A stretch of DNA of 64,000 nt from Bacteroidota bacterium (GTDB taxonomy: Bacteria > Bacteroidota > Bacteroidia > Flavobacteriales > Flavobacteriaceae): assembly GCA_947447375.1 (NCBI GenBank), contig CANFJB010000006.1:1-64000 (forward strand). The letters run 5' to 3'. The translations under genes were made by a program, and so were the position numbers. This document shows, piece after piece, positions 309 through 62,699 of the stretch. Every line of letters begins with the position of its first letter. Within the stretch, counting starts at the first letter, position 1. The notes beneath the pieces are model-generated. The model did not search any database and was not told the origin of the DNA. It saw only the letters and a program-made list of their open reading frames with translations.

Positions 309-330
309 CCTATAAATAACGTTTTTGGGT

Positions 331-459
331 TTGCGTGAGCGATGGCAGTGGAAATCCTCTGTGGAGTGAAACGCAACAGAGATTGCAGCGGACAGCGCGA
401 CCGAGTTTAGCACAGATTGTTTCGTAAACCTGAAACGACTAAACGAGGGCACGCCCAAA
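331..459 (+). repeat. Dispersed modular hairpin repeat, copy 1
   Basis: The segment contains GCAGTGGAAATCCTCTGT, then GCAACAGAGATTG and AGCGG, ending near a GGGCACGCCC palindrome. CTCTGT (357-362) and ACAGAG (376-381) can pair across a 13-base loop. It matches 11790-11887 at roughly 85-90% over its first 60 bases. The ordered blocks GGAAATCC, hairpin, ATTG and AGCGG also occur in minus orientation at 10662-10722, 52459-52521 and 62579-62655. Confidence 0.72.
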
Positions 460-8467: not shown

Positions 8468-8490
8468 AATAGTTTTATTATTATAAAACA

Positions 8491-8523
8491 AAAGAGGCTG
8501 TTCATTGAACAGCCTCTTTTTAT
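8491..8523. terminator. Bidirectional terminator between lysoplasmalogenase gene and dnaK
   Basis: AAAGAGGCTGTTC (8491-8503) pairs perfectly with GAACAGCCTCTTT (8507-8519) around an ATT loop, with T-rich sequence on both sides when read in either direction. It ends the plus-strand pair and can also serve the convergent dnaK. Confidence 0.88.
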
Positions 8524-10492: not shown

Positions 10493-10661
10493 TTTTATTT
10501 AATTTAAATTTAATTTTAATTTCTAAACTCCCTTTGCTTAAGTCAATCTTTGTGCCATTGTAGTAATACGTTATAATTGTCAGTTTTCCATTCTTTTGGA
10601 TAATTAATTTCTGACAATATGACATTTTGAAGCGAATTGTCCCTGACTTTTTGGAATTGTA
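10493..10661. other. Gene-free spacer upstream of dnaK
   Basis: No open reading frame or RNA gene is supportable here. It presumably contains the dnaK leader and promoter. ATTGTCAG and CTGACAAT (around 10576 and 10612) form 8-bp inverted arms with a long loop. The rest of the interval to 10908 is a modular hairpin repeat (10662-10722) and the left flank of an inverted-repeat-bounded gene. Confidence 0.4.
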
Positions 10662-10722
10662 ATTCCCGCTTTCGGCTATATCTCTCCGCTTTGCTACGAG
10701 GATACCGCCTTACTCGGGGCTA
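10662..10722 (-). repeat. Dispersed modular hairpin repeat, divergent copy
   Basis: Read on the minus strand, the element starts TAGCCCCGAG, passes through a GC-rich potential hairpin (GGCGGTATCCTC against GAGATATAGCC) and ends AGCGGGAATTA. The outer blocks match the copies at 52459-52521 and 62579-62655, while the core is different. Confidence 0.6.
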
Positions 10723-10876
10723 TTGGAACAATTGTTTTCTTGTTTTTTAATTTTGAGGCTTAAATAAAACTGCTATTGAAAAATTAAAACTATATTTGAA
10801 CTAAATGCGCTAGTGAGTAGCGACAATCTACCCAAATTCGGGGTGATAAGCAAAAGTTTGTAGCACCAAGCTAATA

Positions 10877-11394: not shown

Positions 11395-11513
11395 CCCCCG
11401 CTAGCGCGAGCGTCACGCTCGTGTTCACAAGAAAAATAACCGTACAAATAAAACTATAAGTACTTGTCATGCTGAACTTGTTTCAGCATCTAAAAAGAAT
11501 CTGAAATAAATTC
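11395..11513 (+). repeat. 119-bp direct repeat, first copy
   Basis: This block is repeated at 11547-11665 with only two mismatches (A/T at 11415 and A/G at 11444). It contains three possible hairpins: CGAGCG..CGCTCG, ATGCTGAA..TTCAGCAT, and AATCTGAA with TTCAGATT, which extends past the repeat end. It is non-coding. Confidence 0.85.
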
Positions 11514-11546: not shown

Positions 11547-11665
11547 CCCCCGCTAGCGCGAGCGTCTCGCTCGTGTTCACAAGAAAAATAACCGTGCAAA
11601 TAAAACTATAAGTACTTGTCATGCTGAACTTGTTTCAGCATCTAAAAAGAATCTGAAATAAATTC
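11547..11665 (+). repeat. 119-bp direct repeat, second copy
   Basis: This is a near-identical copy of 11395-11513 (117 of 119 bases), separated by 33 bases. The third hairpin, intact after copy one, is broken here because TTCCCATTGACA replaces TTCAGATTGACA. The region 11368-11893 contains no gene. Confidence 0.85.
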
Positions 11666-11753: not shown

Positions 11754-11789
11754 TACTTAGAATCTGAAATCTGAAATCATAAATCTGGA

Positions 11790-11887
11790 CTCGCATGAAG
11801 GATCGCAGTGGAAATCCTCTGTGGAGCAAAGCGCAACAGAGATTGTAGCGGAGAGCCTGACCCGAATTTTTCGAGGGGCATGCCCAA
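11790..11887 (+). repeat. Dispersed modular hairpin repeat, copy 2
   Basis: It matches 331-459 closely: GCAGTGGAAATCCTCTGTGG, then GCGCAACAGAGATTG, TAGCGGA and a GCCC end. The pairing arms CTCTGT and ACAGAG are preserved. The element ends about seven bases before the stop codon of the DUF4369 gene on the opposite strand. Confidence 0.72.
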
Positions 11888-52348: not shown

Positions 52349-52458
52349 TTATAATTTTAAATTTTGAAACGTAAAAATACAATTTATTATGGTTATTAGA
52401 AATCTATTTTGTTAACAATTGTTAACTATTTTACTTTTTAACTATTTTTTTTGGAGCT

Positions 52459-52521
52459 ATTTCCCGCTGTCATTCCAAATCCTCACTAAAAAGTGAGGGA
52501 TTTTCCCTTCCATCGGGGCTA
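52459..52521 (-). repeat. Dispersed modular hairpin repeat, minus-strand copy A
   Basis: On the minus strand it reads TAGCCCCGATGGAAGGGAAA, then ATCC, a hairpin core CCTCACT / AGTGAGG (stem arms 52481-52487 and 52492-52498), then TTGGAATGACAGCGGGAAA. The flanks are shared with 62579-62655 while the hairpin core is unrelated. It sits in the parA / glcD spacer (52349-52605), which holds no gene. Confidence 0.75.
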
Positions 52522-52605
52522 GGGTTCCTCATTCAAATCACTTTTTAGATTAAAAATACTATTTATTTTTAATATATTTTTTACATTTACAATTCAAATT
52601 ATTTT

Positions 52606-54070: not shown

Positions 54071-54140
54071 AACCGCAAATTCGCAAATTATATTTTATTA
54101 TATCTTTATCTACTTTAAATTAATTTGCGAATTTGCGGTT
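54071..54140. terminator. Perfect 20-bp inverted repeat between convergent genes
   Basis: Arms at 54071-54090 (beginning AACCGCAAATTCG) and 54121-54140 are exact reverse complements across a 30-base AT-rich loop. The arms are built from the CGCAAA spacer motif. The position between two convergent genes, with T-rich sequence after each arm, suggests a bidirectional terminator, though the loop is longer than usual. Confidence 0.6.
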
Positions 54141-54153
54141 TAATTTCTTTAAT

Positions 54154-62534: not shown

Positions 62535-62578
62535 TCTTTTTATTTGGAGCAAAACGATAGTTTTTCATTAGTTAATTT

Positions 62579-62655
62579 TATTCCCGCTATCATTCCAATC
62601 TGCAATATTGCTTTTGTCAAGCAATGTTGCAGGATTTTCCCTTCTATCGGGGCTA
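62579..62655 (-). repeat. Dispersed modular hairpin repeat, minus-strand copy B
   Basis: On the minus strand it reads TAGCCCCGATAGAAGGGAAA, ATCC, a 14-bp hairpin (arms 62600-62613 and 62619-62632, one G-U), then TTGGAATGATAGCGGGAAT. The flanks equal those at 52459-52521 except for single substitutions, whereas the hairpin is different and longer. Confidence 0.75.
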
Positions 62656-62699
62656 ATCTAGAAATGTCTTTTGTGTTTTTTAATTTCTTATAAATTCAC

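Follow-up and report, generated by a model that had tools for sequence, protein, structure and literature searches.

The five hairpin repeats of the window, the whole stretch of 64,000 nucleotides analysed here, are copies of the dispersed intergenic repeat Flavo-1 (RF01705), a kind already known, which has figured among the candidate structured RNAs since 2010. In its main type the repeat forms a hairpin whose foot consists of short Watson-Crick stems interrupted by an A.G mismatch and by two GNA/GNA internal loops; the apical stem above this foot is free in sequence and sometimes replaced. As an explanation we favour, at about even chances, an old non-autonomous dispersed element that folds as a single strand and is served by a putative mover in trans.

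All five copies were confirmed in the window sequence at the positions and on the strands of the original prediction, 331-459 and 11790-11887 on the plus strand and three others on the minus strand (Table 1). With an Rfam scan of the window four of them were assigned to RF01705 with scores above the gathering cut-off of 42 bits. As two of these lie on each strand and pass one family cut-off, plus and minus copies are related, as had been assumed, and judged by these scores the membership of the four is secure. The copy at 10658-10725 (minus strand) stays below the cut-off with 27.6 bits, corresponding to E 0.12 in the window and E 0.00105 in a whole-genome search. The stretch 10625-10722 aligns over 98 nt with 84.7% identity to contig C7 (40974-41071) of G208, a relative that is 90% identical at one 2-kb locus, and no alignment was obtained outside that stretch. 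The matching G208 stretch itself scores 29.5 bits for Flavo-1, and the window copy is likely best read as a diverged member of the family.

Table 1. Coordinates of the Flavo-1 copies in the window and of the transposase gene in the same genome.
Feature	Position	Strand	Remarks
Flavo-1 copy 1, core hairpin unit	328..406	+	RF01705, 54.1 bits, E 5.9e-9
Extended unit of copy 1	333..454	+	Outer stem GCGTG 333-337 / CACGC 450-454; second hairpin GTTTAG 405-410 / CTAAAC 439-444; three-way junction
Flavo-1 copy 2	11788..11866	+	RF01705, 52.2 bits; core as in copy 1; outer stem GCATG 11793-11797 / CATGC 11879-11883
Flavo-1 copy 3, likely diverged, GGTATCC type, long-tail 3' end	10625..10722	-	Rfam match 10658-10725, 27.6 bits
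Flavo-1 copy 4, variant foot	52456..52524	-	RF01705, 43.7 bits; orthologue by synteny in G208:C4 44362-44430
Flavo-1 copy 5, variant foot, long core stem	62576..62658	-	RF01705, 50.3 bits
REP-associated tyrosine transposase gene	L079:1337-2014 (G000:C4, near 137 kb)		Framed by 45-nt inverted repeat, 91% complementary

The window copies agree with the RF01705 model in arms, pairs and orientation. The predicted copy limits are accurate insofar as starts and ends lie 2-4 bases from the Rfam matches, whereas the predicted 3' ends of copies 1 and 2 include an extra hairpin beyond the model. These two copies exceed the 76 model positions with an outer stem and a second hairpin, which are confined to them among the five window copies. 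They share a 22-nt block that was absent from every shuffle (mean 0.00) and also the core CTCTGT/ACAGAG; the view that the cores are unrelated from copy to copy is thus right in that cores vary, but does not apply to this pair. Copies 1 and 2 carry the main-type foot with a different outer end, while copies 4 and 5 show the foot variant GAAGGGAAAATCC / GATT(T)GGAATGA and copy 3 belongs to the GGTATCC type; the last three are outside the 156-copy table described below. The assumption that the modular structure had no description fails at the family level, since the Rfam model already holds conserved arms and a variable hairpin. New here are the GNA/GNA foot with its G.A pairs, the covarying pairs and the strand-specific fold of the main type.

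The anatomy of the main type was derived from 156 distinct GGAAATCC-type copies, gathered from 120 public stretches, G208 and the own genome with up to two substitutions allowed in the 5' arm and up to three in the 3' arm; orthologues are included and the copies are not independent. Their foot is built from short stems at model positions 9-11/66-68, 13-14/63-64, 18-19/58-59 and 23-26/51-54. It contains an A.G mismatch in 154 of the 156 copies and two 3x3 internal loops with GNA on both sides and a free middle base. G.A is kept at (15,62) in 152, at (17,60) in 153, at (20,57) in 154 and at (22,55) in 149 copies. The pair (10,67) covaries through all four Watson-Crick types (CG 74, TA 50, AT 19, GC 7). 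The edges are sharp: conservation opens at YYYTAGCC (155 copies) and closes at GCTYC (148 copies). The latter motif lies 4-6 nt past the closing GG in 105 of the 148 copies and 29-32 nt past it in 24, a long tail unlike the RF01705 model; in 19 copies it is absent within 40 nt after the closing GG. An A-rich run follows the element, with 64-80% A at positions 12-17 past the closing GG (148 copies).

Mismatches over the eleven foot pairs are G-T in 26 and A-C in 8 cases. At (10,67), (14,63), (18,59) and (19,58), the pairs where the search pattern allowed both, the ratio is 23 to 2 (sign test, P 2e-5). This excess, together with the conserved G.A and the covariation, marks one strand as the folded one. 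Selection, present or past, thus works on a single strand, be it RNA or single-stranded DNA, and not on a symmetric cruciform. By inference, the complement strand would show TNC in place of GNA in the loops. Folding energy alone cannot name the strand: with DNA parameters, the complementary strands of copies 4 and 5 likewise give better folds than shuffled sequences (z -2.46 and -5.34). RNA folding energy supports copies 3, 4 and 5 (z -3.12, -2.24 and -4.01) but not copies 1 and 2 (z -0.84 for 328-459 and 0.16, respectively). The DNA-parameter fold of 328-459 on the plus strand contains the outer stem, the main stem and the second hairpin, whereas the RNA-parameter minimum-energy fold of the same stretch has another main stem.

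The main rival of a dispersed element is a true structured RNA, either an sRNA or an mRNA element, that is bound by protein via the G.A-stacked foot and whose copies represent many genes or UTR parts; we consider it possible, though rather unlikely. Strand-specific covariation with G-U pairs argues for it, but G-T pairing is expected of single-stranded DNA as well. The original authors rated Flavo-1 as "RNA? y, cis-reg n" in the accessible Table 1 of PMC2864571, and according to the available sections of a 2021 transcriptome of F. psychrophilum several 5' transcribed regions coincide with Flavo-1 matches (PMC9723704). In those same sections, however, matches are reported sense or antisense to transcribed regions, untied to transcript strand, and many outside them, and the transcriptome gave no real clue to the role of Flavo-1. 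RF01705 is also named in PMC3765529 and PMC7682815. No function is given in the accessible text of PMC9723704, PMC2864571, PMC12306157, PMC9029176 and PMC3733652, from a literature that comprised few subscription articles and no bioRxiv preprints.

Conserved ends around an exchangeable core, the central claim of the prediction, were found again in 25 orthologous pairs of the own genome and G208. The two arms show 92.7% and 93.1% identity with 3.3% and 1.2% gap columns, whereas the core reaches 86.0% identity with 19.2% gap columns; the 40-nt flanks show 87.7% and 89.9% identity and 11.0% and 8.8% gap columns. Fixed lengths served to delimit arms and cores, and at least one pair (C1:79235) is misplaced by this. 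At least 12 gap columns occur in 6 of the 25 core alignments, where a change of core family or the uptake of an insert was recognised by eye. Evolution of arms and cores together by point mutation only, named beforehand as the refuting outcome, is not the case in these pairs. At C12:18785 the arms too have changed type against G208. According to our own reading of the alignments, C2:8452 shows a paired change (CACAC/GTGTG versus CAAGC/GCTTG), whereas C6:52456 differs from its orthologue by broken pairs rather than paired changes. Four core motifs were sought outside Flavo-1 in sampled stretches with one substitution allowed; three occur there and one does not, in a count where a palindrome is counted twice and a 12-nt motif may match by chance. 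Capture of cores from other repeats is possible on these sequence matches.

Between orthologues the arms changed less than the flanks (89/1261 versus 212/1896, P 9e-5), in a comparison that takes in only sites detected in both genomes. The slower change hints at a function and is a further point in favour of the structured RNA.

In the own genome, an assembly of 25 contigs with 2.39 Mb and 95.7% completeness, there are 73 Flavo-1 matches at E <= 1, of which 56 exceed the cut-off; for G208 the numbers are 57 and 36. Five of 14 control genomes match at E <= 1, none of them over the cut-off, and none of the 14 matches at E <= 0.001. At the latter threshold and with the best 89 candidates per genome considered, Flavo-1 occurs in at least 26 of 40 genomes, the own one included. 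Within the genus, 23 of 25 genomes carry 1 to 88 matches under the same conditions; the two genomes without any count against a structured RNA and equally against a chromosomal landmark (see below). Broader samples at E <= 1e-6 revealed the repeat in at least 150 of 249 genomes of the family (best 18 candidates per genome) and at least 50 of 395 genomes of the phylum (best 11 candidates per genome). Such an uneven distribution speaks for the dispersed element. Viral contigs gave no exact match to one 5'-arm pattern, the only pattern scanned there.

Comparison of 42 own copies with flanks to G208 resulted in 25 shared sites, 6 without match and 11 without a syntenic pair. Hence 25 of 31 comparable sites are common and 6 are unmatched, where no match means absence from the best 150 of 582 candidates. 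The six unmatched sites comprise two simple absences, one larger difference and three cases where the intergenic stretch of G208 is longer and of different sequence. At the site of copy 5, G208 has no copy within a larger difference (738 versus 53 nt), the alignment extending to 62522 and again from 63261. For C1:98460, five relatives (G050, G101, G152, G208 and G174) are without some 180 bp, and in G058 and G262 a gap of 47-50 nt between matches was judged as absence from the short gaps. G014, in contrast, aligns straight through (query 568-1270), and the lineage-specific insertion that had seemed likely from the five relatives was dropped. The alignment would so indicate either two gains or one gain followed by later losses. 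At C4:159815 three relatives (G014, G058 and G174) align across the element and three (G050, G152 and G208) are without it, a distribution that implies loss; G101 and G262 gave no match.

Flavo-1 thus appears, from these alignments, to be mostly inherited at the distance of the own genome to G208, with differences in presence and absence. No fresh insertion was demonstrated among the own-versus-relative sites compared. The non-autonomous, putatively mobile element of the original prediction is favoured here too, with a probability of around one half. MITEs are non-autonomous, dispersed and foldable, and Flavo-1 resembles them in all three respects; a target duplication was not visible at the two Flavo-1 sites aligned, where more sequence is missing than the element itself. 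At the C1:98460 site, near 18387-18436 of L225, a dispersed ACCTGACAGGTTT-type repeat adjoins Flavo-1 in the stretch missing from relatives. This repeat gave 12 matches in the G208 stretches sampled and 7 in those of the own genome, on both strands.

Placement relative to genes was analysed with longest-ORF calls for 42 of the 73 own copies (30 best and 12 more) and 54 of the 57 G208 copies. In the own genome, 7 convergent, 13 divergent and 19 tandem regions face expected numbers of 4.9, 13.7 and 20.4 (P 0.60; 3 of the 42 copies at edges). The G208 values are 4, 16 and 29 compared to 4.4, 17.0 and 27.6 (P 0.92; of the 54 copies, 3 inside ORF calls and 2 at edges). Both distributions fit random intergenic insertion. 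A sample of 92 copies from named genomes gave 11, 18 and 63 versus 8.2, 31.9 and 51.9 (P 0.009), with fewer divergent regions than expected, the expectation being derived from G208; this deficit counts against the favoured explanation. Within tandem regions the sense to antisense ratio is 43:54 (P 0.31; own, G208-only and named-genome copies), and this similar occurrence on both strands of genes speaks against the structured RNA. So does the lack of a common neighbour gene among 346 neighbour and control proteins, where the largest cluster has 4 members. Several small recurrent neighbour clusters suggest old, inherited sites.

Hairpins between genes could also act as transcription terminators or 3'-end stabilisers, and copy 1 does come after a 5S rRNA gene, as in G208:C14. 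We regard this reading as very improbable: the run after the element is A-rich, not T-rich, the T run of an intrinsic terminator is absent in the 148 copies, and convergent regions are not over-represented in the own genome or G208.

Along three single-contig chromosomes (G010, G060 and G051) the copies are dispersed, as would suit a DNA landmark for chromosome organisation, either a nucleoid-protein or a replication-linked site. There is little probability for such a role, as the strand of Flavo-1 does not differ between the chromosome halves. This comparison included 43 of 55 (G010), 56 of 80 (G060) and 51 of 76 (G051) copies, 150 in all, with dnaA (base 415 in all three) as origin and 3.5 Mb as length, both of which may be wrong. 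Local GC skew revealed no strand bias either (27/53 and 10/20), and strand-specific covariation is likewise at odds with a landmark. Among the 56 listed copies of G060:C1, 40 are on the plus and 16 on the minus strand (P 0.002), the chromosome halves being alike.

The sole Y1_Tnp match of the own genome at E <= 0.001 is a REP-associated tyrosine transposase (RAYT; NF047646, 87.9 bits; Table 1). A REP-type repeat mobilised by such an enzyme would be in accordance with many intergenic, strand-specific hairpin copies, and over 40 genomes Y1_Tnp genes do co-occur with Flavo-1 (21 with both, 5 with Flavo-1 only, 2 with Y1_Tnp only, 12 with neither; P 1e-4). About 2.2 kb separate the own copy C4:134715 from the RAYT gene. 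Within the genus, however, where only two genomes are without Flavo-1, the association is not significant (P 0.37), and G004, G011, G012 and G016 carry 88, 44, 12 and 20 copies, respectively, without any Y1_Tnp match. None of 11 RAYT-like and none of 19 other Y1_Tnp loci has Flavo-1 within 1.5 kb at E <= 0.5; 30 of 60 matches were examined with 1.5 kb on each side where the contig allows, and the class was judged from score and length, with only L079 confirmed. The 45-nt inverted repeat that frames the own RAYT gene is unrelated to Flavo-1. The element edges (consensus YYYTAGCC and GCTYC; 155 and 148 copies) hold neither a GTAG nor a CGTC tetranucleotide. A REP repeat of this kind is consequently very improbable, and RAYT as the mover of Flavo-1 was set aside on account of the differing own repeat, the 0/11 loci and the copies in genomes without Y1_Tnp. 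Near Flavo-1 copy 2 the window holds two degenerate copies of the 45-nt RAYT repeat on the minus strand (11404-11426 and 11556-11578), found with up to 4 substitutions.

REP elements are described in the accessible text of PMC3733652 as GTAG- or CGTC-tagged repeats of 20-40 bp, together with their RAYTs. Measured against that account, Flavo-1 is alike in being a short intergenic hairpin with many copies, loop variants, G-T pairing and uneven spread. It is unlike REP elements in being 2-4 times as long, in the missing GTAG/CGTC tag, in the G.A foot and in that no transposase neighbour was found. The same part of PMC3733652 also reports CGTC repeats in Bacteroidetes without a dedicated transposase, and for Flavo-1, too, no dedicated transposase neighbour was found.

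Under the favoured explanation of an old dispersed element, Flavo-1 would spread, or would once have spread, as DNA and non-autonomously. By analogy with REP-like or IS200/IS605-type hairpins, its folded single strand may be what is recognised, and a putative enzyme would move it in trans. Old copies would persist mostly by descent and be lost at some sites, while the apical stem could be exchanged by template switching or by recombination with other repeats. More tentatively, and with some doubt, Flavo-1 might represent not an sRNA family but a distinct kind of mobile DNA in Bacteroidota that acts as a single-strand hairpin. It would be recognised by the GNA/GNA G.A-stacked foot and the GCTYC end, carry an exchangeable apical cassette that takes up other repeats, and depend on a putative mover. 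If it is a dispersed element at the DNA level, filing it as an sRNA misleads the annotation of flavobacterial genomes, and there should be an enzyme that handles it. A testable substrate for binding and cutting is offered by the G.A-stacked foot together with the sharp ends.

Other features of the window were observed as well. The contig begins with a 5S rRNA gene cut at its 5' end, whose 3' portion covers positions 1-68 and with 34.5 bits stays under the cut-off (38 bits); Flavo-1 copy 1 lies downstream of it, and the same arrangement is present in G208:C14. An A+T-rich imperfect hairpin between convergent ORFs at 54071-54147 gave a weak, chance-level Rfam match. At 8480-8520 a strong two-way hairpin (AAGAGGCTGTTC / GAACAGCCTCTT) is located between convergent ORFs, which is probably a bidirectional terminator.
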